DNA of 64,000 nucleotides from Aequorivita capsosiphonis DSM 23843 (GTDB lineage Bacteria; Bacteroidota; Bacteroidia; Flavobacteriales; Flavobacteriaceae): assembly GCF_000429125.1 (NCBI RefSeq), contig NZ_AUBG01000011.1, forward strand, positions 186,001 through 250,000. Reading direction: 5' to 3'. This document shows, piece by piece, positions 4,635 to 57,276 of this stretch; position 1 is the first letter of the stretch; the number at the start of each line of letters is the position of its first letter. Both the position numbers and the translations under genes were made by a program. The notes beneath the pieces were generated by a model. The model did no database searches and was not told the DNA's origin. It worked only from the letters and a program-made list of their open reading frames with translations.

Positions 4635-5888
4635 ATGGGCTGTACCAGCTGTGCCACGGGCGCCAACGGTCAGCCAAAGGGATGCAAGAACAACGGCACT
4701 TGCGGAACCGATGGCTGTAATAAACTAACGGTGTTCGATTGGCTTTCAAATATGCAACTTCCCGCCGATATGGAACCTTTCAATGCGGCCGAAGTTCGCT
4801 TTAAAAATGGAAGAAAAGAATTCTTCCAAAATTCAGAAAATCTTACACTTAGTATTGGCGATATTATAGCTACCGAAGCTTCGCCTGGACACGATATCGG
4901 CATTGTAACGCTTACCGGGGAACTGGTTCGCGTACAAATGAAGAAGAAAAAAGTTCCGGTTAAAGTAGAAGCTTTACCGAAAATATACCGAAAAGCATCC
5001 CAAAAAGATATTGATATTTGGCAAGGCGTTCGCGATAAAGAGGCAGATGTACAAAAACGTTCGCGTCAAATCGCTATCCGTCTCGGACTTCAAATGAAGA
5101 TAAGCGATGTAGAGTTTCAGGGCGATGCATCTAAAGTTATCTTTTATTACACTGCCGAGGAACGAGTAGATTTTCGGGAATTGATTAAGGAATTCGCTCG
5201 TACTTTCCATACACGTATTGAAATGAAACAAGTAGGGTTTCGGCAAGAAGCAGCTCGCTTGGGTGGAATTGGTAGTTGTGGCCGCGAACTCTGTTGTTCA
5301 ACTTGGTTAACGGACTTTCGCTCCGTAAATACTTCCGCAGCGCGTTATCAACAACTTTCACTTAATCCACAAAAACTAGCTGGGCAATGTGGTAAACTGA
5401 AATGTTGTTTGAATTATGAATTAGACACCTATTTGGAAGCTTTGGATTCCTTTCCAAATACAGAAACTAGATTACAGACTGAAAAAGGAAGTGCGTCCTG
5501 CCAAAAAATCGATATTTTTAAAGGCTTGCTTTGGTATGCCTATGAAAAAGACGGCATGAACTGGCATGAACTAACTGCCGAAAAGGCGAACGAAATAATA
5601 GAGTTAAACAAAAACGGTAAAAAGCCACTAGCGCTTGAAGAGTTTATAATTGAAGTTAAAGCTCCAGAAAAAGAGCCCTATGGTAATGTGGTTGGGCAAG
5701 ATAGTTTGACTCGTTTTGACAAACCTAAAACTATCAAAAAGAGAAACAAAAAAAGAAGTAAGCCTAAAGCAAAAGCTGGCGCAACTACTGGAAACGCTCC
5801 ACGAAGCAAGCCTAAAAAATCTGGTGACAAACCAAGAAACAAGTCTGGAAATCAAAACAGAAATCGCAAACCAACAAAAGATGAATAA
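4635..5888 (+). CDS. ricT: RicT-like PSP1-domain protein (Fe-S complex subunit family)
   Basis: The 417-residue protein carries the PSP1 C-terminal domain of the RicT/YaaT family, which in Bacillus forms an iron-sulfur-containing complex that helps RNA maturation. Cysteines cluster at the N-terminus (MGCTSCATG, CKNNGTCGTDGC) and again in RELCCSTWL and CGKLKCCLNYE, which fits Fe-S ligation. The C-terminal 55 residues are very basic (Lys/Arg/Asn-rich) and may bind RNA. The gene overlaps the start of gldH by 8 bp, so the two are translationally linked. The family assignment is firm; the function in Bacteroidota is inferred. Confidence 0.88.
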   Translation: MGCTSCATGANGQPKGCKNNGTCGTDGCNKLTVFDWLSNMQLPADMEPFNAAEVRFKNGRKEFFQNSENLTLSIGDIIATEASPGHDIGIVTLTGELVRVQMKKKKVPVKVEALPKIYRKASQKDIDIWQGVRDKEADVQKRSRQIAIRLGLQMKISDVEFQGDASKVIFYYTAEERVDFRELIKEFARTFHTRIEMKQVGFRQEAARLGGIGSCGRELCCSTWLTDFRSVNTSAARYQQLSLNPQKLAGQCGKLKCCLNYELDTYLEALDSFPNTETRLQTEKGSASCQKIDIFKGLLWYAYEKDGMNWHELTAEKANEIIELNKNGKKPLALEEFIIEVKAPEKEPYGNVVGQDSLTRFDKPKTIKKRNKKRSKPKAKAGATTGNAPRSKPKKSGDKPRNKSGNQNRNRKPTKDE

Positions 5889-42921: not shown

Positions 42922-42955
42922 AACTTTGAAGATACCCATTCTTCAAAGTTTTTTT
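42922..42955 (+). terminator. Terminator directly upstream of the radical SAM gene
   Basis: AACTTTGAAGA (42922-42932) and TCTTCAAAGTT (42940-42950) form a perfect 11-bp stem followed by seven T residues, and the next ATG follows immediately at 42956. Confidence 0.8.
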
Positions 42956-44026
42956 ATGTCTGATAATGTTCTAAAAGGTCGTGGCGCCCAGAAAAATGTA
43001 CACAATCGTTTCTTCGAAAATAGTCACGAAGTCTTGGATGAGTATTTAAATTTCTGTGAAGCCGAAGGCGAAGAAGCTGATAGAAATAAAACAACCTACA
43101 TTGAAGTTTTTCCGAAGACATTTGTAAATAAGGTTAAAAGTCCTGATGTTGGAATGAGTTATTCCGCAAATCCGTATCAAGGTTGCGAACACGGTTGTGT
43201 GTATTGCTATGCCAGAAATACCCACGAATATTGGGGTTATGGAGCCGGCTTGGATTTTGAACGAAAAATTCTCTTTAAAAGAAATGCACCTCAGCTTTTG
43301 GAAGAAAAGATAACTTCAAAGAATTGGCAGGGCGAAACCATTATATTTTCAGGAAATACAGATTGCTATCAACCATTGGAACGCAAAATGGAAATCACCC
43401 GAAAATGTTTGGAGGTGATGCTAAAATGGAAACATCCCACGGGAATCATCACAAAAAACTCATTGATTCTTCGCGATCTAGATATTTTAAAGGAAATGGC
43501 CAAACTGAATATTATTTCAGTAAATGTTTCCATCACTTCCCTTTCCGAAGATACCCGCAGATTATTAGAGCCGCGAACGGCAAGTATTAAACAACGGCTT
43601 AAAGTTGTTGAAATACTTTCAGCAAACGGAATTCCTGTTCGCGTAATGATGGCGCCGATTATTCCTTCCTTAAACAGCCACGAAATCCTTCCTCTGGTAA
43701 AAAAAGTAGCAGAACTTGGCGCAAAAGATGTTGGCTACACCATTGTTCGTTTAAACGGCCAGATTGCTGAAATATTTAAGGATTGGGCCTATAAAACCAT
43801 TCCGGATAAAGCGGAACGCATTTTAAACCAAATTGCAGAGTGTCACGGCGGCAACCTCAACGACAGCAATTACGGAAGAAGAATGCGAGGCGAAGGCACT
43901 ATTAGCGAACATGTAAAAAGTACTATGGCAATCGCCAAGAAAAGATATTTAAAGGATCGCAAAACTGAAACCTTGGATACCTCGCATTTTCTTCAATTAA
44001 AAAATCCGCAGCTAAATCTATTCTAA
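42956..44026 (+). CDS. PA0069-family radical SAM protein (SplB-like)
   Basis: From ATG 42956 the protein has 356 residues. The Fe-S motif CEHGCVYC (a CxxxCxxC motif) lies near residues 79-86 and is preceded by NPYQG. Related proteins are annotated as SplB-like repair enzymes, but the PA0069 group has no proven substrate. A longer frame to TTG 42926 would lie inside the terminator stem and is rejected. The rest of the protein fits a TIM-barrel. Confidence 0.9.
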   Translation: MSDNVLKGRGAQKNVHNRFFENSHEVLDEYLNFCEAEGEEADRNKTTYIEVFPKTFVNKVKSPDVGMSYSANPYQGCEHGCVYCYARNTHEYWGYGAGLDFERKILFKRNAPQLLEEKITSKNWQGETIIFSGNTDCYQPLERKMEITRKCLEVMLKWKHPTGIITKNSLILRDLDILKEMAKLNIISVNVSITSLSEDTRRLLEPRTASIKQRLKVVEILSANGIPVRVMMAPIIPSLNSHEILPLVKKVAELGAKDVGYTIVRLNGQIAEIFKDWAYKTIPDKAERILNQIAECHGGNLNDSNYGRRMRGEGTISEHVKSTMAIAKKRYLKDRKTETLDTSHFLQLKNPQLNLF

Positions 44027-44038
44027 ATTTCTCTGTAT

Positions 44039-44046
44039 TATCTTTG
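44039..44046 (+). promoter_or_regulatory. Candidate -7 box (TATCTTTG) for the ClC gene
   Basis: TATCTTTG matches TAnnTTTG. The ClC start is 207 bp downstream, which implies a long leader; no small ORF is supported in between. Confidence 0.35.
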
Positions 44047-44252
44047 CAGTGCTCTGGGGAAAATTTAGTCTTCCGATGAATTGCTAGTTTTTTAAACAAA
44101 ACCCTAATTTCACTATAAATTTAAGAAAAGACCGATGTTTTTATTAAAGCCTATATTTAATCAAGAATCGATAGCTTTAAAACGAAAGTAACAGGGCATT
44201 TACTATAAATTGCATAATTAACTTTAAAAGTCAAAACAGAATATGACGTCCA

Positions 44253-46100
44253 ATGGTTTATAAAATAAAAAAAATGATAGTCGGCTTTTTAAAGTTCAAA
44301 AGAGCCTTCGTAAACTATCCATTTAGGAAGTTCAATGTTGTAGAAATACTTCTATTTTATATTAGGGAACGGGTTACGCGTATTCAATTTCTAATTCTCT
44401 CGGGTATCCTGGTTGGTTTGAGCGCCGGTTTGGCCGGAGTTCTTCTTAAGGTCTTGGTCCACCATATACAACTTTTCGTCAATAATGATGTACCGCTCAC
44501 GGAGCGGCTATTTGTATTTGCTATATTTCCGATGCTGGGAATTGTGTTGACCTCCTTAATCGTGAAATACCTTTTTAAAGGAGATGAAGACAAGGAGCTT
44601 TCATTTATATTAAAAGATATTTCACAAAATGGCAGCAAGGTGAAATCCAGCAAAATGTACTCCCAAATTATCCAAAGTGCGGTAACTGTTGGGTTTGGAG
44701 GTTCGGTTGGTTTGGAAACCCCAATTGCAGTTACGGGATCAGCTTTTGGTTCTAATTATGCACAACGTTATAGTTTAGGTTTTAAAGAACGTACTCTTTT
44801 ACTCGCATCTGGTGCAGCTGCAGGTATAGCCGCCGCTTTTGATGCTCCCATTGCGGGCGTGATGTTCGCCTTCGAAATTTTACTCACCGGCCTAGTATTT
44901 ACAGATTTTATTCCCTTGGTAATCGCTGCCATTTGCGGTAGTTTGCTATCAACTATTATCTTAAAGGAAGACGTGCTTTTCAATTTACAGTCCCGTGAAG
45001 TTTTTTACTATGGCAACACATTATATTTTCTTGGTTTAGGAGTCTTAACTGGATTGTACGCGCGTTATTTTTTAGTTGTAGGGCAAAGAGTGCATCAATT
45101 TTTTGAACGTTTTAAAAGAAAAATCCTGCTCCGGGCAATAATTGGTGGGTCGCTGCTTTCTTTATTATGTGTTCTCTTTCCTCCTCTTTTTGGTGAAGGC
45201 TATTTAAATATAAAAACCCTACACCGAGGCGATGTGGAACATTTAATACACGAAAGCCTCTTCAGTTATTTTGGAACCTCCCAATTAATCATTATCGCCT
45301 TTCTAGGCTTAACAATTATGATGAAGGCCTTTGCCACCAGTATTACGCTGAGTTCGGGTGGGAATGGAGGAAATTTTGCACCCTCTTTGGTCGCTGGTGG
45401 ACTTTTAGGTTATCTTTTTGGTTTCGTATTGGAAATGATGGGAATGCCAAATGTACCAACTACCAACCTCATGCTAGTGGGAATGGCCGGCGTGATGTCT
45501 GGCGCATTATACGCACCCTTAACTGCAATCTTTCTTATCGCCGAAACCAGTAGTGGCTACGATCTTTTTATCCCGTTGATGATAGTTTCTGTAATGGCTT
45601 ATGCCATTAACCGTTTCTTTTCAACTATAAATCCGGCTTATAAAAAACTCGCGGACGCAGGAGAAATATTTACTACCCGCCAAGACCAAAATATTCTTTC
45701 ACACATCCATCTTCAAGATTGTCTGAATACCGCGTCACTGATAATCAATACAACGGAAAGCATGGAAGAGATTATGGAAAAATTTAGAAATAGCAATCAG
45801 AATACGATGGCCGTAGTAGATGCGGAAAATAAATTCTGGGGGATTCTAAACCGGGAGAGACTTCGACCCTATTTACTTGGAAAGGAATCTACGGAAGATA
45901 TAAACGTAAGCCAATTGGCTTCAAATCCTTCTTTCATAGTTTCTGATAAAGATAGTGTTATGGAGGTAATCAAAATGTTTGACGAAGCAGATGTTTGGCA
46001 GTTGCCAATGCTTGATGAAGACCGAAATTTTCAAGGGTTTATAAGCCGTTCCGCAATTTTAAATAATTATAGATTGTTGTTGCGGGAGTATTCTGAATAA
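44253..46100 (+). CDS. ClC-family chloride channel/transporter with CBS domains
   Basis: The 615-residue protein has ten or more membrane segments with ClC selectivity motifs GGSVGLETP and GGNGGNFAPSL, and two C-terminal CBS domains (about 485-615) for nucleotide control. Both channel and H+/Cl- exchanger types exist, and the transport mode cannot be told here. ATG 44253 and 44274 are both possible starts. Confidence 0.9.
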   Translation: MVYKIKKMIVGFLKFKRAFVNYPFRKFNVVEILLFYIRERVTRIQFLILSGILVGLSAGLAGVLLKVLVHHIQLFVNNDVPLTERLFVFAIFPMLGIVLTSLIVKYLFKGDEDKELSFILKDISQNGSKVKSSKMYSQIIQSAVTVGFGGSVGLETPIAVTGSAFGSNYAQRYSLGFKERTLLLASGAAAGIAAAFDAPIAGVMFAFEILLTGLVFTDFIPLVIAAICGSLLSTIILKEDVLFNLQSREVFYYGNTLYFLGLGVLTGLYARYFLVVGQRVHQFFERFKRKILLRAIIGGSLLSLLCVLFPPLFGEGYLNIKTLHRGDVEHLIHESLFSYFGTSQLIIIAFLGLTIMMKAFATSITLSSGGNGGNFAPSLVAGGLLGYLFGFVLEMMGMPNVPTTNLMLVGMAGVMSGALYAPLTAIFLIAETSSGYDLFIPLMIVSVMAYAINRFFSTINPAYKKLADAGEIFTTRQDQNILSHIHLQDCLNTASLIINTTESMEEIMEKFRNSNQNTMAVVDAENKFWGILNRERLRPYLLGKESTEDINVSQLASNPSFIVSDKDSVMEVIKMFDEADVWQLPMLDEDRNFQGFISRSAILNNYRLLLREYSE

Positions 46101-46110
46101 AGGATTGTTT

Positions 46111-46200
46111 TCTCTGCAAACCTCAGCGTTAGCTCTGCGCCACTCTACGTGAAAGCTATTTCGCAGAGTTACACAAAGGACCACAGAGGTACACAGAGGG
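46111..46200. repeat. Degenerate CTCTGTG-type inverted repeat
   Basis: TCTCTGC.. CTCTGCG on the left and CGCAGAGTTACACAAAGG..ACACAGAGG on the right form an imperfect fold-back between the ClC gene and the TPR regulator gene. Confidence 0.5.
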
Positions 46201-46241
46201 TTTAAAGTCCATAATCCCAAAACTCCAATTATTTTAATTAG

Positions 46242-46249
46242 TAACTTTG
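46242..46249 (+). promoter_or_regulatory. Candidate -7 box for the TPR/AraC regulator
   Basis: TAACTTTG matches TAnnTTTG and lies 44 bp before the ATG at 46294. Confidence 0.45.
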
Positions 46250-46293
46250 ACCGTTTCATCCTTATATTGAAAAAACTTGCTGGCTCAAATTAT

Positions 46294-48006
46294 ATGAAAT
46301 ATCTCTTCAATTTTTTTTTAGTATTCTTATTTGCTTTTCCAACATATATTTTCGCGCAAAAAGATACTTTGGCAGGTAAGGATTATATCGAGCTCACTAA
46401 ATTAATAAAAGCACAATCAAAAGATACTACACAGGGATTTGCACTGTTGAAATACTATCAAACCAAGGCTCAAAAAGAACAGAATTTAGAACGCGAGTTT
46501 GAAGCTTTGATAACATATTCTGCTATATATTTTGAAAATGAATTATTTGAAAAAGCTGCTGAAAAAATGGATCAAGTGCTTCTTTTTAGATCAAGGAACG
46601 ATCTAATTGCCCAAAAAGAGCGCACTTATAAAACAGCTATGCTTGTATACCTCAGGTCAGGGCACATAAAAAAAACATATGCTGCAATAGATAGCACGCT
46701 CGTAATAGCAGATAAAACCAATGATTTAAAATTAAGACTTTCCGCCAACCAAATGATGGAGCTTTTAGATGGTATGGGCGGAAATTATAGATTAACTATT
46801 ACAAGAACGAAGCAAAATTTAAAGAATTTAAATAATCCAGATCTAAAACAGCTAAGTTCAGAAAGTAAAAATCAACAATTGCTTCTAAACCAATCGATAC
46901 TAGCCAATGCATATTTAAGATTAAAAATTGCAGATTCTAGTGTTATTTATTTAAATGAATTATTACAAAATCCAATTGTTAGAAATGATTCTTGTATTAT
47001 CAAAATTACATATCTCCAACTTGCTGAAGCTGAAATATTATTAAAAAACTATTCCACAGCAAATAAAAATGTGAGTAAGGCGAAACAATATTGCCAGCCT
47101 TTTTCAAAAATGGACAGTTTACTTTTGGGAGGTCTTTTAGGTAGAATGTATCTTCAACAGGAAGATTACGAAAAATCGATAGTAGCCTTAGAGAATGCAT
47201 TCAAAACCTATGAAATTAATGAACAAGAGGAAGCATTTACTTTAGATTATTACAAAATATTAGCTGAAGCATATAAAGGCAAAGACAATTTAGAGAAAGC
47301 AAATTTTTATTTCCAAAAATATGTAAACGCTTCGGAAAAGTTTGGAAGTGTAAGAGATACAATTCAAAGAGGAAAACAAATAAGAGAAATAAACCAGTTT
47401 AAAAATGTATTAGAATTCTTAAAGAAAGAAAAAGAGGGGAAGCAATCCAATTTTAACTACCTATTACTCGGCGGATCTATAGTTATCTTGATCCTTCTTT
47501 TCATTCTCCTAAAATTCTATCGAAACAAAAAAGCCAACGAAATCAAGTTTGACGCATTGCTTGCTAAAATTAAGGCTGCTGAAAATCCCGAAAATATTAT
47601 AGATACAAAAGACGAAGTTCTAGAAGAAACAAATTCCACCGATGTTTCTGAAGAGGTTACGAATCACATTCTAGACGGACTCAAAAAATTGGAGGAAAAG
47701 GAATATTTCTTAAAACAGGAATGCAACTCTTATAACGTTGCGAAGAAAATTGGTACTAATACCTCCTACCTTTCTAAAGTAATCAACTCACACTTCGGCA
47801 AAAATTTCAACACCTATATCAATGATCTCCGAATCAATTATGTCATTATTCGTTTAAAGAATGATGTAATTTTTAGATCGTATTCTATCCAATCCATCGC
47901 CGAGGAAGTAGGTTATAAATCTGCAGATTCTTTTACCAAATACTTCAAAAAAGATACTGGATTAAACCCTTCTTTCTACATTAAGGAGATTAAGAATGTC
48001 GCCTAA
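46294..48006 (+). CDS. Membrane-anchored TPR protein with C-terminal AraC-type helix-turn-helix
   Basis: From ATG 46294 the product has 570 residues. A signal peptide (MKYLFNFFLVFLFAF) leads a periplasmic region of about 350 residues with TPR-like helices, then a membrane helix near 395-415 (LLLGGSIVILILLFILLKF). The cytoplasmic part ends in an AraC-type DNA-binding domain with IAEEVGYKSADSFTKYFKKDTG. It looks like a one-component sensor that reads the periplasm and binds DNA directly. The small-membrane-protein genes downstream are natural targets. Confidence 0.85.
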   Translation: MKYLFNFFLVFLFAFPTYIFAQKDTLAGKDYIELTKLIKAQSKDTTQGFALLKYYQTKAQKEQNLEREFEALITYSAIYFENELFEKAAEKMDQVLLFRSRNDLIAQKERTYKTAMLVYLRSGHIKKTYAAIDSTLVIADKTNDLKLRLSANQMMELLDGMGGNYRLTITRTKQNLKNLNNPDLKQLSSESKNQQLLLNQSILANAYLRLKIADSSVIYLNELLQNPIVRNDSCIIKITYLQLAEAEILLKNYSTANKNVSKAKQYCQPFSKMDSLLLGGLLGRMYLQQEDYEKSIVALENAFKTYEINEQEEAFTLDYYKILAEAYKGKDNLEKANFYFQKYVNASEKFGSVRDTIQRGKQIREINQFKNVLEFLKKEKEGKQSNFNYLLLGGSIVILILLFILLKFYRNKKANEIKFDALLAKIKAAENPENIIDTKDEVLEETNSTDVSEEVTNHILDGLKKLEEKEYFLKQECNSYNVAKKIGTNTSYLSKVINSHFGKNFNTYINDLRINYVIIRLKNDVIFRSYSIQSIAEEVGYKSADSFTKYFKKDTGLNPSFYIKEIKNVA

Positions 48007-48018
48007 AACCACCGTTTT

Positions 48019-48044
48019 AACCCGAAATTTATAAATTTAGGGTT
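48019..48044. terminator. Hairpin after the TPR/AraC gene
   Basis: AACCC (48019-48023) pairs with GGGTT (48040-48044) around an AAATTT-rich inner stem. A second hairpin with CCCCA/TGGGG arms lies near 48137-48160. Both lie before the promoter region of the next operon; support as terminators is moderate. Confidence 0.4.
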
Positions 48045-48217
48045 GGCGGTTTCGTCATTTCTAAAAATTACTTCAATAACGAGCAATCCCACTGTTTTCA
48101 ATGGGTAACGTGTTTTTATTCCTTCCCCATTTTCCTAAAACTGGGGATGCTTCTCTTTTATATATGAGTTTTGTGTTGCAGATTTGTTTCAGAAATTAAC
48201 CACTAAAACAATTTATT

Positions 48218-48580
48218 ATGAACACACAAAAAACTTTAAATCGCAAACGTAAATTAATCGTAAAAGTAATCTTAGGTTTTATTATCGGTATTTCATTCGG
48301 CTTCGGAATAACTAAAATGATCAAATCAGATACTCGATTGACTTCCTCAATTAAACAAAGTATTCAAGAAAATTGTGACTGCGAATCGGTAAATAAAAAT
48401 ATTTCTTCAATAGGACTTCAATTTAGCAAAGATGGTATTACCAATAAAACAGTATCATTTGTGCTTAAAAATTGCAAGTATGAGGTTTCAGCAGCTGAAG
48501 AGGCCAAGAAAATAAATGAGCACTTAAAAGCTACTATTCCAAATTACGAAACAATAGATATTATTGAACTTTCTTTTTAA
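48218..48580 (+). CDS. Small membrane-anchored protein, unknown function
   Basis: The 120-residue protein has a basic N-terminus (RKRKLIVK), one membrane helix (about 14-32, VILGFIIGISFGFGI) and an outside domain of about 85 residues with a CDCES motif near residue 53 and another Cys. It starts a run of four short membrane proteins ahead of the S9 peptidase and follows the TPR/AraC regulator. No family is recognised. Confidence 0.7.
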   Translation: MNTQKTLNRKRKLIVKVILGFIIGISFGFGITKMIKSDTRLTSSIKQSIQENCDCESVNKNISSIGLQFSKDGITNKTVSFVLKNCKYEVSAAEEAKKINEHLKATIPNYETIDIIELSF

Positions 48581-48669
48581 TCCAATAGAGTAAAAGAGTT
48601 TGTAAAGATAAAAAACGGTACTGTCCTGTAATTTCAGTAATAGTTTAACGGAAATAAAAAATCAAAAGA

Positions 48670-48897
48670 ATGAAAACTCCAAAAAACCGAGAAACAACAA
48701 TCAAAAAGTTAATTATTTCAGCCATTGTAGCATTTGGAATATTCTTAATATCGCTATTCATTATTGGAACTTATGTAGGAGAAAAACTATATCATAAAAT
48801 GAACGCTAATATTGAAAAACCAATTGAAAAAATAAATTCCGAAGAGCTCAGCTTTCACTTTAATAAATATCAAAAACTTAACCTTCATTTAATCTAA
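48670..48897 (+). CDS. Small membrane protein (75 residues)
   Basis: The product is Lys-rich at the N-terminus and has one membrane helix (LIISAIVAFGIFLISLFIIG). A hydrophilic tail follows. It lies 89 bp after the 120-residue protein and 11 bp before the next tiny ORF. No family is recognised. Confidence 0.6.
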   Translation: MKTPKNRETTIKKLIISAIVAFGIFLISLFIIGTYVGEKLYHKMNANIEKPIEKINSEELSFHFNKYQKLNLHLI

Positions 48898-48908
48898 AAC
48901 ATACTATT

Positions 48909-49007
48909 ATGAAAAAATCAAAAACACAAAATATCTTTTCCGCTATATCCTGGGCAATATTTCTATATTTTTATTTAGCTCTGTATATTCACACACAATA
49001 TCACTAA
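48909..49007 (+). CDS. Tiny membrane protein (32 residues)
   Basis: The frame ATG 48909 to TAA 49007 encodes 32 residues: a short basic start (MKKSKTQN) and one hydrophobic segment (AISWAIFLYFYLALYI). It is 11 bp after the previous ORF and 1 bp before the next. The spacing and the shared basic-then-hydrophobic pattern support it as a real gene. Confidence 0.5.
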   Translation: MKKSKTQNIFSAISWAIFLYFYLALYIHTQYH

Positions 49008-49008
49008 T

Positions 49009-49107
49009 ATGAAAAGCAAAACATCTAAATACATTAAATTTATAAAATTCGCCATTGGTATCTTAATTGGCATAACAATTTATCTACTAATCACACTAAT
49101 CTATTAA
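49009..49107 (+). CDS. Tiny membrane protein (32 residues), second
   Basis: The frame ATG 49009 to TAA 49107 encodes 32 residues with the same layout: basic start (MKSKTSKYIK) and one membrane helix (FAIGILIGITIYLLITLIY). It follows the previous tiny ORF after 1 bp and precedes the S9 peptidase by 11 bp. Confidence 0.5.
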   Translation: MKSKTSKYIKFIKFAIGILIGITIYLLITLIY

Positions 49108-49118
49108 AACCAACTATC

Positions 49119-51389
49119 ATGAATATATTAATCAAATTATCAATAGCACTTACGTTGCTGTTTATGGCTGGGTCAATCCAAGCCCAAGAATTAAACGGTT
49201 CCTACAGTGGCAACCTTGAAGTACAAGGAATGCAAATGGAGTTAATCATTAACATTACACCAACTGAGGACGGTTATACCGCAACTCTCGATGTTCCTAT
49301 GCAAGGTGCAAGCGGAATAGAACTCGATTCTGTAGTTTTGCAGGATAAAACTGTTACCATTACTTCGGCCAAAATGGGATTGACCTATACAGGTTCAGTT
49401 TCGGGAGAAACTATAGAAGGAACTTACGAACAAATGGGACAAAAATACCCCCTAAACTTGAAGAAGACAATAAAAACAAAACCCGGAAATACAGATTTGC
49501 CCTCAACAGATGCCGAATTGGAAAAATTAGCCTCAAAAGCAAAAGGCAATTTTAAATATACTGTTGCCGATTATTTTAAAACTCCAGATGTTTTCTCCTT
49601 TAAACTTTCGCCTGACGGAAAATATCTCTCGTATATGAAGAGGAGAGAAACTGGGGAACGAGATGTTTATTTGAAGGAAACCGCAACACAAAAAGAAAGT
49701 TTGCTAATAAAGCAAGAAGAGGATTTAATTAGATCTTATTTTTGGGCCAATGACAACCGAATCCTATACCTTCAGGATAAAGGAGGAAATGAAAATTATC
49801 ACTTGTTCGGCGTTGATGTAGATGGTTCCAACAAAAAGGAACTAACTCCATACGAAGGTGTAAAAGTGGACGTACTTGAAATGGTAAAGGATGACGAAGA
49901 CAATATCATCGTGCAAATGAACAAGGACAATCTTCAGCAAGAAGAACCCTATCGCCTAAATATAAATACAGGAGAGGCCACAAAGTTATATACTGTAGAG
50001 GCTGGCAGTCCCCCAGTAGCTGGCTACGCTTTTGACCAAAAAGGAAATCTTCGGGGCATCGGGAGAATGGTGGATGGAGTAGATATAGAATATCTTTACA
50101 AAATTGATGGGGAGTTCAAACCAATGATGGTGGTTGAATTCGGTGATTCTTTTGGGATTAATGACTTTAATCCCCGTTCCGAAAATCCCGATGATGCCTA
50201 TGTGGTTTCGAATTTAGGAACCGATAAAGCCGAGATCCAACTTTATGATCTTAAAAAGAACGAAAAGATTAAAACCCTATTCAAGAACGATGATTTTGAT
50301 GTTACGGGACTTTCACTTTCCAGAAAACGTAATTACGAAATAGATTTTTACTATTATCAAGGTGAAAAAACCGAGGTGGTGCCGGTAAGCGAGACTTATA
50401 AGAAAATTCATGCCCGTCTAAAGAAAGAATTTGGTGATAAACAGTTTTTCACCCAAGGGAAAACCGATGACGAATCAAAGTATTTAGTAATTATTACCAG
50501 TGATAAAATTGTGGGAGAATATTACTTATACGATGTAGAAAAGAACACTGTCACATTGCTTTATAAGTTACTGCCAAATTTAAAGGCGGAAGATATGGCA
50601 ACTATGAAACCAATCACTTTTAAGAGTAGAGATGGGTTAACGCTTCACGGATATATCACCTTGCCACAAGGCTATAAAAAAGGACAAAAACTTCCATTAA
50701 TTGTAAATCCGCACGGTGGGCCACAAGGGATACGAGATAGCTGGGGCTTTAATCCAGAGGCGCAATTGTTTGCCAGTCGCGGTTATGCAACCCTTCAAGT
50801 GAACTTTAGGATTTCTGGCGGTTATGGAAAAGAATTCCTTAAAGCAGGTTTTGGACAAATAGGTAGAAAAGCAATGAACGACGTGGAAGATGGAATTGCC
50901 TATGTAATTAATGAAGGATGGGTAGATAAAGATAAGGTTGCCATTTATGGTGGAAGCCACGGCGGATATGCAGTACTTCGCGGAATGACCAAAACCCCAG
51001 ATTTGTATGCCTGTGGTGTAGATTATGTAGGCGTTAGCAACCTGCATACATTTATGGAAACTATACCTCCATATTGGGAAAAGTATAAGGAGCTGCTTTA
51101 CAAAATTTGGTACAATCCTACCATTCCAGAGGAAAAAGCAATTATGGATGAAATTTCTCCAGCTTTGCACGTTGATAAAATCAAAAAACCATTGTTCGTG
51201 GTTCAAGGTGCAAATGATCCACGTGTGAACATTGACGAAGCAGATCAAATAGTTGAAAGTCTACGGGAAAATGGTGTTGATGTTCCTTATATGGTAAAAT
51301 ATGACGAAGGTCACGGTTTCGGAAAAGAAGAAAACCGATTGGATTTTTATGCAGCGATGATGGGCTTCTTTGCGGAACACCTCAACTAG
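49119..51389 (+). CDS. Secreted S9 (prolyl oligopeptidase-like) peptidase with an N-terminal beta domain
   Basis: The 756-residue enzyme has a signal peptide (MNILIKLSIALTLLFMAGSIQAQ). Residues about 24-115 form an extra beta-rich domain (NGSYSGNLEVQG, then repeated DGYTATL and GTYEQMGQKY phrases) not usual in S9 peptidases. A propeller follows (about 150-510), then the hydrolase with Ser613 in GGSHGGY, Asp700 in GANDPRV and His732 in GHGFG. It should cleave short peptides in the periplasm. It is the last gene of the tightly spaced small-protein run. Confidence 0.9.
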   Translation: MNILIKLSIALTLLFMAGSIQAQELNGSYSGNLEVQGMQMELIINITPTEDGYTATLDVPMQGASGIELDSVVLQDKTVTITSAKMGLTYTGSVSGETIEGTYEQMGQKYPLNLKKTIKTKPGNTDLPSTDAELEKLASKAKGNFKYTVADYFKTPDVFSFKLSPDGKYLSYMKRRETGERDVYLKETATQKESLLIKQEEDLIRSYFWANDNRILYLQDKGGNENYHLFGVDVDGSNKKELTPYEGVKVDVLEMVKDDEDNIIVQMNKDNLQQEEPYRLNINTGEATKLYTVEAGSPPVAGYAFDQKGNLRGIGRMVDGVDIEYLYKIDGEFKPMMVVEFGDSFGINDFNPRSENPDDAYVVSNLGTDKAEIQLYDLKKNEKIKTLFKNDDFDVTGLSLSRKRNYEIDFYYYQGEKTEVVPVSETYKKIHARLKKEFGDKQFFTQGKTDDESKYLVIITSDKIVGEYYLYDVEKNTVTLLYKLLPNLKAEDMATMKPITFKSRDGLTLHGYITLPQGYKKGQKLPLIVNPHGGPQGIRDSWGFNPEAQLFASRGYATLQVNFRISGGYGKEFLKAGFGQIGRKAMNDVEDGIAYVINEGWVDKDKVAIYGGSHGGYAVLRGMTKTPDLYACGVDYVGVSNLHTFMETIPPYWEKYKELLYKIWYNPTIPEEKAIMDEISPALHVDKIKKPLFVVQGANDPRVNIDEADQIVESLRENGVDVPYMVKYDEGHGFGKEENRLDFYAAMMGFFAEHLN

Positions 51390-51482
51390 ACCTAAGACCG
51401 CTTGCTCCTCCGCTAAAGCTTTGGCGGCACGCGGACGCTGTAGGACTTAGGATATAAGACTAAAATTTTCTTTAACTGAAAT

Positions 51483-51511
51483 AACCTATCAAGCGTGAAG
51501 TTTGATAGGTT
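51483..51511. terminator. AACCTATCAA palindrome after the S9 peptidase
   Basis: AACCTATCAA (51483-51492) pairs with TTGATAGGTT (51502-51511), followed by TTTC. It resembles a degenerate member of the 33-bp palindrome family and probably terminates the operon. Confidence 0.55.
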
Positions 51512-51513
51512 TT

Positions 51514-51574
51514 CTCTGTGTCCTTTGTGGCTTTGTGGTAATAAATACACCACGGAGGCACAGAGGACACAGAG
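51514..51574. repeat. CTCTGTG-type long inverted repeat
   Basis: A 26-bp arm (51514-51539) pairs with 51549-51574 with few mismatches around a 9-nt loop. It is nearly the same element as 9521-9583. Confidence 0.7.
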
Positions 51575-51576
51575 TT

Positions 51577-52257
51577 TTATTTTTTACCTTCCCATTCCGC
51601 ATAGAACTGTTTCAGAAAAGTTTCCATAAACAAATGTCTTTCTTCCGCAATTCGCCTGCCGGTTTCAGTGTTCATTCTATCTTTCAATAGCAGTAATTTT
51701 TCGTAGAAATGATTGATTGTAGGAGCATCCGAAGCTTTGTATTCTGAAGGCGTCATATTCAATTTTGGCGCAATTTCGGGATCGTAAAGCTTTCGATTTT
51801 TAAAACCTCCATAATTAAATGCTCTTGCAATCCCAATGGCTCCAATGGCATCAAGTCTATCGGCATCCTGGACTACTTCCAATTCTGTTGAAGTAAAACT
51901 TTGGGTTTTGTTTCCTCCTTTAAAAGAAACGTTCTCAATTATTTTTATAATATGCTCCATTATTTCTTCGGAAACATTTTGGGTTTTTAAGAACTGTCGC
52001 GCTTTTTTGGGACCTACAGTTTCATCGCCATCGTGGAATTTTGAATCCGCTATATCGTGAAGCAGCGCTCCTAATGCGACAACCGTTTTATCAACTTCTT
52101 CCTCTTCTGAAATTAGCAATGCATTTTTATAAACGCGTTCAATATGAAACCAATCATGGCCTCCTTCGCCACCTTTCAATTCATTTTTTACGAAGTTGAT
52201 TGTATTCTTAATAATTTCTGAAGCTTGCGCGCCGTGGCGTGGAGAATATGAAGACAT
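51577..52257 (-). CDS. HD-domain phosphohydrolase
   Basis: The 226-residue protein has the metal-binding motif HDWFHIERV near residue 35 and LLHDIADSKFHDGDE near 70, characteristic of HD-type hydrolases such as YedJ. It likely hydrolyses a nucleotide or other phosphate ester. The substrate is unknown. Confidence 0.88.
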   Translation of the reverse strand: MSSYSPRHGAQASEIIKNTINFVKNELKGGEGGHDWFHIERVYKNALLISEEEEVDKTVVALGALLHDIADSKFHDGDETVGPKKARQFLKTQNVSEEIMEHIIKIIENVSFKGGNKTQSFTSTELEVVQDADRLDAIGAIGIARAFNYGGFKNRKLYDPEIAPKLNMTPSEYKASDAPTINHFYEKLLLLKDRMNTETGRRIAEERHLFMETFLKQFYAEWEGKK

Positions 52258-52417
52258 AGTTTATAGGTTTTGTGAAAGTAGTAATGATTTTCTTTAGCTA
52301 AGAGGTCGCACGCCAGACCCCCTTCCTTCGGCAGGCAAGCATATGGGAGAATTGAAGTTTGGTCAATATTTAAATTGATGGTGTAATCTAGCTCCCTTTA
52401 GGGCTGGGGTAAAGATT

Positions 52418-53164
52418 CTAATTATTATGTACTTTTGAAGTTACAGTTTCCTCTACCTTATCAATCAACGCTTCCACGTCAAAGTCTGAAATTTTAATGG
52501 CGGGATGCGTAGTCATTTCTAAACGCACACCCATCTGGATTGGAAACATTCCATACCGCTGCAATTTCCAAGAATTATTGATTGTAACCGGAATAACATA
52601 GCCATCTGGCACTTTTTTGAAAAGAGTTTGTAAGCCACTTCTTCTGAAAGGTTTTGGAACTCCCGTCTTACTACGTGTTCCTTCTGGGAAAATAACACCG
52701 CTCCGATTAAATTTCTGAAGGTATTTTGAAAACTTTACCAATTCAACTATCGCTTGTCTTGGATTTTTTCGATCGATTAATATAGAACCTCCGTGACGCA
52801 GATTAAAAGAGATAGAGGGAATCCCTTTTCCCAATTCAACTTTTGAAATAAACTTAGGGTGATATTTTCGGAGATACCAGCTTAACACGGAGATTTCCCA
52901 CATGCTCTGATGGTTGGATACAATTATGATAGGTACATCGTTAGGAACATTTAAGTCTATATCAATGTGATAGGTAGTTCCAACCGCATGCAGACATCGC
53001 AACAGCGTCCAGTTGAAAACATCAACTGTTTTTTTGTGAGCCGTATATCCAAACCAATTAAATGCTGCCCATTGTATAGGATGAAACACCAGAATTGTAA
53101 TACCGAAGAATAGGTAAAACAACACTGAGAACGGATAACTAATAATTTTTAGGAGTGCTTTCAT
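52418..53164 (-). CDS. 1-acyl-sn-glycerol-3-phosphate acyltransferase (PlsC family)
   Basis: The 248-residue protein has an N-terminal membrane helix and the acyltransferase motif NHQSMWE (about 83-89; the usual NHxxxxD ends in Glu here), then FPEGTRS near 160. It acylates lysophosphatidic acid or a related lipid in the inner membrane. The Glu in place of Asp in the first motif is a small departure from the consensus. Confidence 0.88.
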   Translation of the reverse strand: MKALLKIISYPFSVLFYLFFGITILVFHPIQWAAFNWFGYTAHKKTVDVFNWTLLRCLHAVGTTYHIDIDLNVPNDVPIIIVSNHQSMWEISVLSWYLRKYHPKFISKVELGKGIPSISFNLRHGGSILIDRKNPRQAIVELVKFSKYLQKFNRSGVIFPEGTRSKTGVPKPFRRSGLQTLFKKVPDGYVIPVTINNSWKLQRYGMFPIQMGVRLEMTTHPAIKISDFDVEALIDKVEETVTSKVHNN

Positions 53165-53184
53165 TAACTTTCAAAAATAAGAAA

Positions 53185-53205
53185 ACCGTCTTAAAAAAAG
53201 ACGGT
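53185..53205 (-). terminator. Terminator after the bacilliredoxin operon
   Basis: ACCGTCTT (53185-53192) pairs with AAGACGGT (53198-53205). On the minus strand it follows the 75-residue protein gene and is followed by TTTTC. Confidence 0.6.
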
Positions 53206-53241
53206 CTTCCGTTTGCTTAATTACATTTTATTCACTGAAGA

Positions 53242-53469
53242 TTAATGTTTCGATTTAGACTTCGACCTATTCTTCAATGTATTTCGGTCTATATGAATAT
53301 AGTTATAAACACAAAGGCCAATAACCACCAACCAAAAGGCCCTATAAAGCCAATCGTTTATTTCTTTTCCAAACAAATGAGAAACAGTCGGGTTGTCATA
53401 AATGTTATAACCCAAGGCTCCAAGGGCCAAAATTCCGATAATGATAGTAAATGGTTTGGTAATTTTCAT
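53242..53469 (-). CDS. Small two-helix membrane protein (75 residues)
   Basis: The protein has two hydrophobic segments (about 7-21 and 44-60) and a Lys/Ser/Arg-rich end (NRSKSKSKH). It follows the bacilliredoxin gene after 10 bp, so the two are co-transcribed. No family is recognised. Confidence 0.68.
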   Translation of the reverse strand: MKITKPFTIIIGILALGALGYNIYDNPTVSHLFGKEINDWLYRAFWLVVIGLCVYNYIHIDRNTLKNRSKSKSKH

Positions 53470-53479
53470 ACCCCTTTTT

Positions 53480-53890
53480 TTAGCAATATTCGTTATATGC
53501 GTCTTTTAGGTTTTCAGCGATCATCTGTGCTGGACGACCTTCAATATGATGACGTTCTAACATGTGAACCAATTCACCATCTTTAAACAAAGCCATTGAA
53601 GGCGAGCTTGGAGGAAATGGAACCATACTGGCACGTGCAGCATCAACAGCCTCACGGTCAACACCTGCGAAAACTGTTACTAAATTAGTAGGTTTTTTGT
53701 CATTTTGAAGTGACATAGCTGCGCCTGGACGTGCATTTGCAGCTGCGCATCCGCAAACCGAATTTACAATCACTAAAGTAGTTCCTTCTTTTTTCAATGC
53801 TTCTTCAACATCATTCGCTGTATGTAATTCTGTGAAACCTACTTTTGTAAGGTCCTCACGCATTGGTTTTACTAATTCTGCTGGGTACAT
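53480..53890 (-). CDS. BrxA/BrxB-family bacilliredoxin (YphP/YqiW)
   Basis: The 136-residue protein has the CGC motif in SVCGCAAANARPG near residues 54-56. Family members remove bacillithiol from proteins after oxidative stress. Whether bacillithiol exists here cannot be told from this window. A TATCTTTG promoter and a perfect palindrome lie upstream. Confidence 0.9.
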   Translation of the reverse strand: MYPAELVKPMREDLTKVGFTELHTANDVEEALKKEGTTLVIVNSVCGCAAANARPGAAMSLQNDKKPTNLVTVFAGVDREAVDAARASMVPFPPSSPSMALFKDGELVHMLERHHIEGRPAQMIAENLKDAYNEYC

Positions 53891-53925
53891 ATTATTTGTA
53901 TTTAAAGTGTATTAAAATTTTGTTG

Positions 53926-53961
53926 CAAAGATACAAAATTTGAAAACGAAATGTTTTCAAA
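53926..53961 (-). promoter_or_regulatory. Bacilliredoxin promoter with adjacent palindrome
   Basis: The minus strand has TATCTTTG (53926-53933). Upstream lies the perfect palindrome TTTGAAAAC-n5-GTTTTCAAA (53939-53961), which overlaps the place of the -33 element and could be an operator. Confidence 0.5.
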
Positions 53962-54074
53962 TAAATCCCAAATAACAGCGATGAAATTTCAAATTCCAAA
54001 ATTCCCAACTATTTACACAAACTACTTTTAGAATTTTGATATTGAGATTTGGTGCTTCCTTTTTTATTTGGAAT

Positions 54075-54106
54075 TTGAATTTTGGTTTTTAAAAACATTA
54101 CCTTTG
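54075..54106 (+). promoter_or_regulatory. Candidate promoter of the DnaJ-like gene
   Basis: TTG (54075-54077) and TACCTTTG (54099-54106) are 21 bp apart, matching the Bacteroidota -33/-7 consensus. The ATG is at 54138. Confidence 0.55.
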
Positions 54107-54137
54107 ACGGCTCTAATTCAGAAAAATTACAATTTTT

Positions 54138-54869
54138 ATGCTTCGTTGGCTATTGGCCGTTCTCGGTTATTTTTTTTATCGGTTTCCAGGTGCTATTGCA
54201 GGGTTTTTTATAGGAAGCCTTTTAGACAACGTTAACGTAAAAGGCAAAACATTTCAGACTTCCTTTGGAGGCTCACAACAACAGGTGACTCCTGCCGATT
54301 TTGAACTGAACTTACTTTCCTTGGCTTCCTTGGTTATTAAAGCGGATGGCAATGTGAGCCAGACTGAACTGGATTATGTGCGTCAATACTTTGTTCAGGC
54401 TTATGGGAAGGATCGTGCCAATGCAACTTTTAAGGTTTTTAATGAAGTAATAAAAAATAGAGAAATTTCTGCGCAAACTATTGGTGCGATGCTTCGTCAA
54501 AGAACGCGTTACGAAAGTAGGTTGCAAATTCTTCACTTTTTGTTTAGCATCGCGAATGCAGATGGCAGCGTTTCAACCGCAGAAGTTAATGAAATAAACA
54601 GAATCGCAGGTTTCTTGGGCGTTTATGCGCGTGATTTTGAAAGTATAAAAGCGATGTTCTTTAAAAATCCGGACAGCGCATATAAAATTCTAGAAATAGA
54701 CCGAAATGCCACCGCTGCCGAAATTAAAACGGCCTACCGCACTATGGTTAAAAAATACCATCCTGATAAACTACAGCATTTGGATGAAGCCCACCGAAAA
54801 GGTGGAGAGGAAAAGTTTAAAAAAGTTCAAGAAGCCTACGAACAAATTCAAAAGGAGCGGGGACTTTAG
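54138..54869 (+). CDS. TerB/DnaJ-domain protein (DjlA-like co-chaperone)
   Basis: The 243-residue protein has an N-terminal membrane helix, a TerB-like helical domain at about 50-165 and a C-terminal J domain at about 178-243 with the HPD motif in KKYHPDKL. The layout fits DjlA, which stimulates DnaK at the membrane. The stop is followed by a repeat-rich stretch. Confidence 0.88.
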
Positions 54870-54933
54870 CTTCGATACGTCTTGATGAAAAATCGAGACA
54901 CTCAGCTACCGATTATTTTGAAGACAATTAATA

Positions 54934-54966
54934 AAACCTCACAGGTCTTTGAGACCTGTGAGGTTT
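54934..54966. repeat. 33-bp palindrome after the DnaJ-like gene
   Basis: AAACCTCACAGGTCT and AGACCTGTGAGGTTT form a perfect 15-bp stem with a TTG loop, followed by a T-rich run on the plus strand. It can terminate transcription of both converging genes. Confidence 0.75.
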
Positions 54967-54971
54967 GTTTT

Positions 54972-55289
54972 TTAATCCTTTCTGTATTTCTTTCTCGTTA
55001 TTACTTTTTCAAGTTGTCTAGCAATTATCAATCGCGCCAAAGTTTGCCCTGAAGTTTCTTTCGAAGCATTTTCGGCAAGTGCAGCCACAGCTTTTTCTTG
55101 TGAAACATCAATTCTATATAAAATTGCTATTAGTTTATTATAATCCCTTACCAATAAATTGTCGAGATACTTAGCCAGATCGCTTTCCAATTCCTCATAA
55201 GTTTGTTTCTCAATAGGAACCGGTTTTTCTGAAGTGACTATTTTATAGCTCCACAGCAAGGCTTCAAATTTATCATCGTCTTTTTTCAA
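54972..55289 (-). CDS. Conserved small helical protein of unknown function
   Basis: The 105-residue product is mainly charged helices (YEELESDLAKYLDNLL, LARLIIARQLEKVI) ending in a Lys/Arg-rich tail. No domain is recognised. The start is TTG 55289 as no ATG is available. It is convergent with the DnaJ-like gene. Confidence 0.65.
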   Translation of the reverse strand: MKKDDDKFEALLWSYKIVTSEKPVPIEKQTYEELESDLAKYLDNLLVRDYNKLIAILYRIDVSQEKAVAALAENASKETSGQTLARLIIARQLEKVITRKKYRKD

Positions 55290-55351
55290 AGTATCAAAAT
55301 TTTATTGATCGAATAAATTACATATTACTTAAAGCCTAGAGTTTAAACAGT

Positions 55352-55445
55352 TTGGCTAAAGCCAGTATCAATGACTCAACTTTACGGGCTGAAGCCCGTG
55401 GCAATTGAAAAGTATCTTTTGTGACTGAAGCCAGTGGTAATTGAA
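55352..55445. repeat. Three tandem GGCTGAAGCC-type hairpins
   Basis: Three similar hairpins, with cores GGCTAAAGCC, ACGGGCT-GA-AGCCCGT and GACTGAAGCCAGT, are spaced about 35-40 bp apart; the last two are followed by GGCAATTGAAAA and GGTAATTGAAAA. Confidence 0.6.
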
Positions 55446-55516
55446 AATGAATTCCTTTTTTGGGTGTCCGTAAAGGGTCATAATATATAACTAAAATTTA
55501 AAGAATATTGATAAAC

Positions 55517-55730
55517 CAGCCCTGAAAGGGAGGTAATATCTTAACATCGGGCAACGCCCGGTAGGGATAAACCCGGGAAACACAAAGCCCTGAAAGGGCG
55601 CAATGATTAACTACATTATGGAACGGCTGCCATTTATGCCGCCCTTTCAGGGCTGGTCTTAGCCCGGTTTACGTGCTGATAGGGCGCTGCCCTATCTAAT
55701 GGTATGGTATGTTGCCTTTTCAGGGCATAT
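55517..55730. repeat. AGCCCTGAAAGGG inverted array
   Basis: Two direct copies (near 55518 and 55586) face two inverted copies (near 55640 and 55714), so the whole 210 bp can fold back. GGGCAACGCCC and AGGGCGCTGCCCT form inner hairpins. Confidence 0.65.
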
Positions 55731-55830
55731 TTCGTCATCTTCAAAAGATTTGTTTACGGATGTAAAAATCAACACACAATATGACAAAATCAATCATATT
55801 ACTGATTACGGATATACAAATTCCTTAATT

Positions 55831-57276
55831 CTAATTGGATTTTTCCACTCTTAATTTTATAAAATCATATAAAAGTCGCACGCCTATACCAGTTCCTCCT
55901 GAAGGATTCGATCCTTGAGCATCTTTTAAAAATGCAGGGCCGGCGATATCAAGGTGAATCCAATCGTAATCTGTAAAGTGTTCTAAGAATTTTCCTGCGG
56001 TACTTGCACCTCCAACGGGACCACCAATATTTTTTAGATCGGCTACGTCACTTTTTAAAAGTTCTTCAAATTCCTTCCAAAACGGCAGTTGAACAAGGCG
56101 CTCATAAGTAGTTTCGCCAGATCGCTTCAATTCATCCATTTTTTCTTGATGATTTCCAGCCATCGCAATCCCGAACGGTCCAGTAATCGCCGCTGCAGCG
56201 CCTGTTAATGTAGCCATATCAATAACAAGTTCAGGTTTGAATTGCTTGGCATAGATTAAGGCATCTGCCAATATAAGTCGGCCTTCGGCATCGGTGTTTT
56301 GAATCTCTACCGTGGTGCCATCCATCATGGTTATAACGTCATCTACCAACAGTGCTTTTCCATCAATTTTATTATCGGTTGCCGGAACCAGACCGATTAT
56401 GTGATATGGAAGTTCATTCATAGCCACGGCAGCCATAATTCCTACAACCGTAGCAGCTCCACCCATATCTGCTTTCATAGAGGACATATGTCCACCGGTT
56501 TTTAGGGAATATCCTCCGGTATCAAAAGTCACCCCTTTTCCAACCAAAACAAGCGGTTGCTTGTTGATTGCGTTTTTGGGCTTATAGGTCATAATATTAA
56601 AAGTTGGTGGCACTTCCGATCCTTGGTTTACTCCCAAAAGCCCGCCCATTCCTAGCGCAACAATCTTATCTTTCTGTAAAATTTCGGTTTCGAAACCATA
56701 TTTTTTTCCGGCCTCAACTATTCTTTCTGAAAACTTTACAGAATCCAGTTTATTAGGCGGTTCATTTACTAATGTACGTGTAAGTGCAACTCCATTAATT
56801 AAATTGGTTACTTTTTTTATTGTCGTTTCAGAAGAAGTTTCGTTTAAAATATAAACTTTTAGTTCTTTCCTGTCATTTTTCTTGTGATAAGAACTGAACT
56901 GATAGCTTCCCATAAGCAAGCCTTCTAAAAAGGAGTTTTTTTGAGAATTGGGCAAATCGTTCAGACCTTCCAAATATGAAATAGTGCAATTTTCCTTTTT
57001 TAAGGCTTTATATAAAGTAATACCCAATTTTCTATTTTGTTCAGAATCCTCAGAAGTTGCGACAACCCAAAAACTTTGTGAATCTCCAAAGGAGGTAATT
57101 ACCTCGTCTTTATCCTTCTCGAAAGCAGCGGCTATTTTTTTGGATAAGGACGTATTCAAGTCGTATTTCTCCAATTGTTTTTCTTCGGAAATAAAAACAA
57201 TTCTACAGGAGTTTTCTAGACTTTCACTCTTGGAATTATAGGATACTAGTTCAAGGTTTAGATAGGAATTTTTCAA
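55831..57276 (-). CDS. Leucyl aminopeptidase (M17 family)
   Basis: The 481-residue enzyme is a cytosolic M17 aminopeptidase with a two-metal site. NTDAEGRLILADAL is the M17 signature, and the metal and active-site lysine region VGKGVTFDTGGYSLK is present. The N-terminal domain of about 160 residues fits. The start is TTG 57276; no ATG is available. Confidence 0.93.
   Translation of the reverse strand: MKNSYLNLELVSYNSKSESLENSCRIVFISEEKQLEKYDLNTSLSKKIAAAFEKDKDEVITSFGDSQSFWVVATSEDSEQNRKLGITLYKALKKENCTISYLEGLNDLPNSQKNSFLEGLLMGSYQFSSYHKKNDRKELKVYILNETSSETTIKKVTNLINGVALTRTLVNEPPNKLDSVKFSERIVEAGKKYGFETEILQKDKIVALGMGGLLGVNQGSEVPPTFNIMTYKPKNAINKQPLVLVGKGVTFDTGGYSLKTGGHMSSMKADMGGAATVVGIMAAVAMNELPYHIIGLVPATDNKIDGKALLVDDVITMMDGTTVEIQNTDAEGRLILADALIYAKQFKPELVIDMATLTGAAAAITGPFGIAMAGNHQEKMDELKRSGETTYERLVQLPFWKEFEELLKSDVADLKNIGGPVGGASTAGKFLEHFTDYDWIHLDIAGPAFLKDAQGSNPSGGTGIGVRLLYDFIKLRVEKSN

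Follow-up and report, generated by a model that had tools for sequence, protein, structure and literature searches.

The stretch of DNA analysed here, called the window throughout, covers 64,000 nucleotides (nt) of the genome of Aequorivita capsosiphonis DSM 23843, and in it a putative membrane-anchored regulator is followed on the plus strand by five consecutive open reading frames (ORFs) of 120, 75, 32, 32 and 756 amino acids (aa), the last of which encodes an S9 peptidase. The locus raises the question of which of these genes form a unit, and whether proteins of 32 residues are real and act with the regulator or with the peptidase. A first-pass annotation of the same DNA had given the lengths of the four small ORFs together with the gaps after the 120-aa ORF (89, 11, 1 and 11 bp, in order), all of which we recover, and had supposed that the tiny proteins modulate or receive the peptidase. 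Comparison with 28 Aequorivita genomes (the genus set) and 397 Flavobacteriaceae genomes (the family set; the S9 family search covered 239) leads elsewhere: the object of interest is the cassette that the regulator forms with the paired boxes and the tiny proteins, and it points to an undescribed envelope-sensing circuit to which the neighbouring peptidase would be an exchangeable extra. In its fullest form the cassette reads regulator, m120, m32a, m32b, and its features in the window are as follows.

46294-48006, plus strand: regulator of 570 aa, TPR, single membrane helix and AraC-type helix-turn-helix (HTH), from an HTH_18 match, sub-cut-off TPR matches and a structure model
48021-48042, no strand assigned: Box 1, near-palindrome CCCGAAATTTATAAATTTAGGG, candidate distal operator, in 23 of 23 leaders and at a single place in its own genome
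48125-48146, no strand assigned: Box 2, CCCCATTTTCCTAAAACTGGGG, candidate proximal operator, at a constant distance from Box 1 in all 23 leaders
48147-48194, plus strand: conserved promoter-like stretch with GCTTCTCTTTT near its start and TTTG at 48183-48186, the TTTG invariant in the aligned leaders
48218-48580, plus strand: m120, single-helix protein whose helix is followed by CxC...C; the window's copy is truncated; 18 copies collected
48909-49007, plus strand: m32a, 32-aa single-helix protein whose relatives end Y-x-H-x-x-[YHF]-H
49009-49107, plus strand: m32b, 32-aa single-helix protein with the core [IV]KFxIGxxxGxxI[YF]L, from profile matches and substitution rates

Conservation and co-inheritance of the tiny proteins

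By itself a 32-aa ORF does not exceed what chance would give, since 107 ORFs of at least 25 aa overlap positions 44000-56000 of the window, and it is conservation that lifts the two 32-aa frames above this background. The family search with m32b matched 206 of the 397 genomes at E<=1, of which only the 12 at E<=3.1e-9 were counted; the next match lies at 2.9e-4, and two weaker matches that were inspected (L126 and L127) have no regulator or cassette beside them. Within the genus, ten of the 28 genomes carry m32b. Its ratio of nonsynonymous to synonymous substitution rates (dN/dS), calculated on the core anchored at KF, is about 0.15, a rough figure because some pairs are near synonymous saturation, and differences at codon positions 1, 2 and 3 number 41, 15 and 77 (eight pairs, sixteen sequences), while none of 1,000 column shuffles gave a dN/dS as low. 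A chance ORF is ruled out by this distribution and by the dN/dS, and judged from its sequences m32b is a real gene under clear purifying selection. It belongs to no Pfam family above the cut-off and to no NCBIfam family, and no obvious catalytic or ligand-binding residues are seen in it by eye.

Clear matches to the hidden Markov model (HMM) of m32a were found in four of the 28 genus genomes, and the protein is present at eight of 20 m32b loci; it is optional in the cassette. Its pN/pS, the corresponding ratio of proportions, is 0.62 from four pairs and without a shuffle control, so that a chance ORF is rejected less firmly here than for m32b. The first-pass annotation had named purifying selection as a check on both 32-residue ORFs and absence from near relatives as what would speak against them; on both counts m32b is well supported and m32a more weakly. 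Its further suggestion, to compare ORF order and spacing among relatives, shows m32b each time in a cassette with the regulator, with m32a optional, m120 not needed everywhere and S9 inconstant. We agree by eye with the basic start and single helix that it ascribed to each small ORF, the hydrophobic stretches having been assigned in the same way. Common descent of m32b and the N terminus of m120 was also considered (hhalign E 3.6e-5, probability 71), and the claim was dropped, the alignment of 21 columns being too short and hydrophobic.

At E<=1e-60, with three candidates scored per genome, the regulator occurs in 16 of the 397 family genomes, including all 12 with m32b, and in each of these 12 m32b lies in one cassette with it; the tie between a sensor-regulator and tiny membrane proteins proposed earlier is thereby upheld. 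The double box is present in 15 of the 16 regulator genomes and m120 in the same 15, plus three genomes in which it stands elsewhere. Three of the regulator genomes (G284, G362 and G168) have regulator and m120 without m32a or m32b. At 18 of 23 box loci m120 follows the regulator, with an extra ORF in between in L118 and L132. Hence m32b, m120 and the box pair are inherited together with one membrane-bound regulator, and the 32-residue protein is conserved across genera.

The CxC motif is present in 17 of the 18 m120 copies and a third cysteine in 16, the G002 copy having neither. In the window m120 ends at an in-frame TAA (48578-48580), the same frame continues to 48631 within the 89-bp gap, and the profile match runs through this one TAA; 16 of the 17 other copies measure 129-142 aa, and that of G002 103 aa. 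The truncation (48578-48631) may reflect either a genuine loss or a mistake in the assembly. In G002 (L031, minus strand, near 4550-4850) the cysteine stretch is lost and both ends are kept. The m120 alignment comprised 15 of the 18 copies (L117, L124 and the G002 copy, which lacks the Cys stretch, were excluded); no Pfam match above the cut-off was obtained with these 15 members and no PDB match for m120 at E<=1, and a single-sequence model, with a mean predicted local distance difference test score (pLDDT) of 44.5, is too poor to use or to judge a lipocalin-like fold.

By profile, the 18 family genomes with m120 are the 15 box genomes together with G162, G105 and G394. In these last three a LytTR response regulator follows a PF06580 histidine kinase, and the m120 relative lies upstream of the kinase at a distance of no more than about 130 nt (L174 4001-6250; L175, minus strand; L176 4001-6206); this is a second signalling context for relatives of m120. 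Two of the three loci carry an unnamed protein of 166-167 aa upstream.

The regulator and its candidate operators

The regulator begins with an ATG at 46294, its N terminus is signal-like by eye, and its match to HTH_18 (PF12833; E 1.7e-14, 54.3 bits against a cut-off of 33.6) assigns it to the AraC/XylS type. All TPR matches are below the Pfam cut-off, and a structure model (mean pLDDT 78) shows a solenoid of TPR-like helices, then a long helix that starts at residue 388 and contains the membrane stretch, and a C-terminal HTH. The TPR/AraC regulator of the first-pass annotation is thus confirmed in its HTH and backed by the model in its solenoid. The model aligns with Rap of pLS20 (Z 22.1, root-mean-square deviation 4.0, 295 residues aligned), with NprR (21.3, 5.0 and 305) and with the eukaryotic LGN (23.1, 5.7 and 313); as these TPR matches are generic, no ligand class can be deduced from them.

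Pairwise comparison of 21 regulator sequences taken from m32b genomes gives mean identities of 0.35 for the TPR part, 0.66 for both the transmembrane (TM) helix and the stretch after it, and 0.92 for the HTH. A near-constant HTH, constant boxes and a fast-changing sensor would be in keeping with an output that stays the same while the input changes. Identity of the TM helix to that of the window's regulator is 0.19-0.33 in three regulators without m32b and 0.44-0.85 in the others (the G205 relative, not recovered by the motif filter, is absent from this comparison), which is compatible with a contact between m32b and this helix and is no proof of one, because the three are also the most distant regulators. 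In Cochleicola gelatinilyticus (L049 2803-6417) two regulators stand in tandem, and the pattern finds a single box pair, after the second.

A leader of 211 bp separates the regulator stop (48006) from the first small ORF (48218), and in this interval two conserved 22-bp near-palindromes, which the first-pass annotation had not mentioned, are found in 23 of 23 cassette leaders. Their separation in the window is 104 bp, roughly ten turns of the DNA helix, and the distance from the start of Box 1 to the AAA of Box 2 is 117-120 nt in every leader; Box 2 of G002 was chosen by hand, and by an independent pattern the overall length in G002 is 115 nt, as in most others. Over the 22 leaders that were aligned (L124 was excluded), the information per column is 1.77 and 1.36 bits in the boxes versus 0.54 between them, and a TTTG 37 nt past the end of Box 2 is invariant in all 22. 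This stretch may resemble the Bacteroidetes -7 element TAnnTTTG. A scan for E. coli-type promoters gave three sites, all on the minus strand, versus 7.4 expected, and no plus-strand promoter at the leader.

Each box occurs at one place only in its own genome with up to three mismatches allowed, and a joint pattern for both has no other match in the window, shuffled sequence giving 0.32 matches on average. The double-box pattern matches 21 of the 397 family genomes, namely the 15 cassette genomes and six others (G076, G200, G234, G240, G297 and G306) whose matches seem to reflect chance or a local repeat; a backwards control pattern also gives scattered single matches among the family genomes, so that a few chance double-box matches are expected. 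Since the pattern was built from the same loci, only its near-absence elsewhere is informative. The 13 double-box matches on contig C1 of G297 (e.g. L141) have sequence in common and seem to be an unrelated family of repeats. The co-inheritance of boxes and regulator suggests that the neighbouring regulator binds them.

A proposed circuit and its rivals

We give roughly even chances to a reading of the region as a one-component circuit, membrane-bound and self-contained, composed of the regulator, the paired boxes and its own operon of small membrane proteins with feedback. The fast-evolving TPR domain, outside the inner membrane, would sense a signal, and the almost invariant HTH would bind Box 1 and Box 2 beside the promoter, presumably activating rather than repressing it. 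This promoter would drive the small-membrane-protein genes directly downstream and, in Aequorivita, S9 as well by way of the tight junction. As the circuit's own membrane partners, the small proteins would probably act back on the regulator: in the genomes that retain it, m120 with its CxC may serve as a co-sensor on the outside, and m32b, via its conserved helix, may modulate the conserved membrane helix of the regulator. Because G021 keeps the regulator and m32b alone, m32b fits a partner of the regulator better than an effector.

Several points weigh against this proposal. A regulator relative without m120, m32a, m32b or boxes is present in G205. Five cassette-bearing Aequorivita (G009, G011, G015, G021 and G024) lack m120, which is Cys-less in G002 and truncated in the window as well and is therefore not required everywhere; G011 retains both m32a and m32b, and G009, G015 and G024 have in the cassette an ORF of the 39-aa class without an evident helix. 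The contrast in TM identity is confounded by phylogeny. The box pattern was derived from the loci that it describes, and the 23 leaders include close relatives and are not independent. Finally, AraC-type regulators usually bind direct repeats, and these boxes are near-palindromes.

It is possible, though we doubt it, that the regulator turns on m120, m32a and m32b as effectors whose targets are the membrane or other envelope proteins, not the regulator, with metal or redox handling through CxC and the histidine tail of m32a as an equally doubtful part of the same idea. The operator and promoter data fit such an effector operon just as well, and the cysteines of m120 and the H-x-x-[YHF]-H end of m32a suit it, but m32b shows no obvious catalytic or ligand-binding residues by eye and is retained alone with the regulator in G021, and the losses of the Cys stretch in G002 and of m120 in five Aequorivita also speak against it. 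The tiny proteins could instead be accessory to S9, modulating or receiving it under a stress- or peptide-responsive regulator, as the first-pass annotation had it. A junction of 10-13 nt between m32b and S9 in 12 of 13 S9 cassettes and the presence of S9 in all ten genus genomes with m32b agree with this, yet seven of the 12 family genomes with m32b have a TraB/PrgY/GumN gene next and no S9 at E<=1e-120, 29 of the 32 family genomes with S9 lack m32b, and S9 occupies the same locus without a cassette in G008, G022 and G149. Because the next gene varies and S9 often stands without the cassette, S9 is a neighbour at the locus, probably an operon passenger, and not a constant target, and an accessory role is very unlikely.

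Unlikely, too, is the view that the boxes are RNA hairpins, a terminator or attenuator of the regulator transcript, and not DNA operators. Both boxes are inverted repeats, pairing extends into some Box 2 flanks and a T-rich run follows Box 2; however, the flank pairs 105-132, 106-131, 107-130 and 104-133 form in 18, 15, 14 and 8 of 22 leaders, covariation gives no support, the Rfam scan returned three matches, all far below gathering scores, the terminator scan found no terminator-like site, and an exact spacing with free intervening sequence would be odd for RNA. Since consensus folding of the leaders yields -2.88 kcal/mol with a covariation term of -0.02, we read the boxes as operator-like DNA sites and as candidate operators. 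A long shot, finally, is a Gram-negative envelope counterpart of the RRNPP and pheromone circuits, in which the external TPR domain would read a peptide from the tiny hydrophobic proteins and the next-gene peptidase would end or shape the signal. A peptidase-type protein in that role would explain why S9, TraB/PrgY-like and Rce1-like genes alternate after the cassette (14 of 15 family-level cassettes); peptide sensing stays a bold reading, as LGN matches the TPR model at a Z similar to those of Rap and NprR.

For the proposed one-component circuit, ToxR/ToxS-type pairs and MgrB-PhoQ are the closest working analogies. As described in PMC9214523, co-component systems (ToxR/ToxS, VtrA/VtrC and PsaE/PsaF) pair a membrane-tethered one-component transcription factor, with an N-terminal CadC/VtrA-like HTH, one TM helix and a C-terminal periplasmic domain, with an adjacent small single-helix partner that has a lipocalin-like domain and forms an obligate heterodimer with the regulator. 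The cassette likewise has a membrane-tethered one-component regulator, the tether judged by eye, beside a same-strand downstream single-helix protein, m120, predicted outside the inner membrane, and shares the fast-evolving outer parts and the conserved HTH. Unlike in those systems, its HTH is C-terminal and of AraC type and its sensor an N-terminal TPR domain, its partner has CxC...C, and it includes additional 32-aa proteins and two boxes, with non-overlapping genes in the window; because HTH type and position differ, it falls outside the co-component systems as defined there. MgrB is described in PMC2789325 as a 47-aa membrane peptide exerting negative feedback on PhoQ/PhoP, and the cassette resembles this pair in that a membrane sensor has beside it a tiny single-helix protein, which it probably controls; its sensor is no kinase, and m32b is without a named family. 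A feedback peptide of the MgrB type is a target of the regulator and inhibits the sensor directly, a role that for m32b would be hypothetical. PMC7117660 covers RRNPP proteins as peptide-binding TPR regulators (Rap/Phr, NprR) and links PrgY/TraB to pheromone degradation. The TPR fold of the regulator resembles Rap and NprR, and a TraB/PrgY-family gene follows the cassette in seven genomes; in contrast to those regulators, the TPR domain here is probably outside the inner membrane, is equally LGN-like, and any exported signal peptide would be hypothetical.

The string AAATTTATAAATTTAGGG did not occur in the literature searched, and nothing on this arrangement was found there for TPR-AraC regulators in Bacteroidota or small proteins in Aequorivita, as judged from titles and abstract openings. 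The locus adds a 32-residue family under purifying selection, a CxC membrane family without a Pfam match above the cut-off, and a two-site operator candidate. With one box pair in the window's genome, the circuit is testable with a single promoter fusion, and the outcome would show whether Bacteroidota tune one-component membrane regulators by tiny helices, as enterobacteria do with MgrB on PhoQ.

Downstream peptidases, m75 and neighbouring genes

Two further features of the window lie downstream of or within the operon.

49119-51389, plus strand: S9 (prolyl oligopeptidase family) peptidase, 756 aa, PF00326
48670-48897, plus strand: m75, probable truncated paralogue of the N-terminal part of m120, from an hhalign comparison with the m120 family

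The match to PF00326 (E 1.3e-46, 159.2 bits against a cut-off of 22.6) places the peptidase in family S9, and 57 PDB sequences at E<=1e-10 bear S9-type names. Its extra N-terminal domain, noted already in the first-pass annotation, is confirmed (49176-49469, about 95 aa); it has no Pfam name, and several relatives align only from about residue 112-118. At E<=1e-120, S9 was found in 32 of the 239 family genomes covered, and it is present in 12 of the 28 genus genomes. The gene after the 15 family-level cassettes is an S9 orthologue in five, TraB_PrgY_gumN in seven, Rce1-like in one (G284) and a different S9 in one (G362), and no peptidase follows in G168. S9 as an obligate partner of the cassette is ruled out by the cassettes followed by TraB and by S9 genes without a cassette. 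The gap between m32b and S9 widens to 96 nt in Cochleicola, the thirteenth locus, and that between m32b and TraB is 82-104 nt; the short S9 junction suggests shared expression in Aequorivita and some relatives.

Of 24 genomes that lack a TraB cassette, which were selected and not random and six of which are Aequorivita, one has the TraB subtype that follows the cassette: G059, where it lies at another place in the genome. TraB therefore looks tied to the cassette, and the idea of an ancestral neighbour kept without it was rejected. A second neighbourhood of S9 and a CxC protein occurs in G394 (L176 7-2286, 4001-4417), where about 1.7 kb separate the CxC protein and kinase pair from an upstream S9 relative that has 52% identity and carries the N-terminal domain.

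The hhalign match of m75 to the m120 family (E 3.9e-6, probability 87) spans residues 1-54, making a truncated, perhaps decayed, paralogue probable and a chance ORF possible. A sub-cut-off Pfam match to Sigma_reg_N (E 2.1e-4, 21.9 bits versus 26.3) was recorded, and tblastn over 24 loci gave partial matches and no full-length relative. In L119 and L121, further small ORFs occupy comparable positions.

On the 5' side of the regulator, 44253-46100 encodes a ClC-type chloride channel with CBS domains (Pfam). Before it, at 42926-44026, is a radical SAM-like gene, so called from a CxxxCxxC motif seen by eye, relatives of which recur as neighbours of the cassette.

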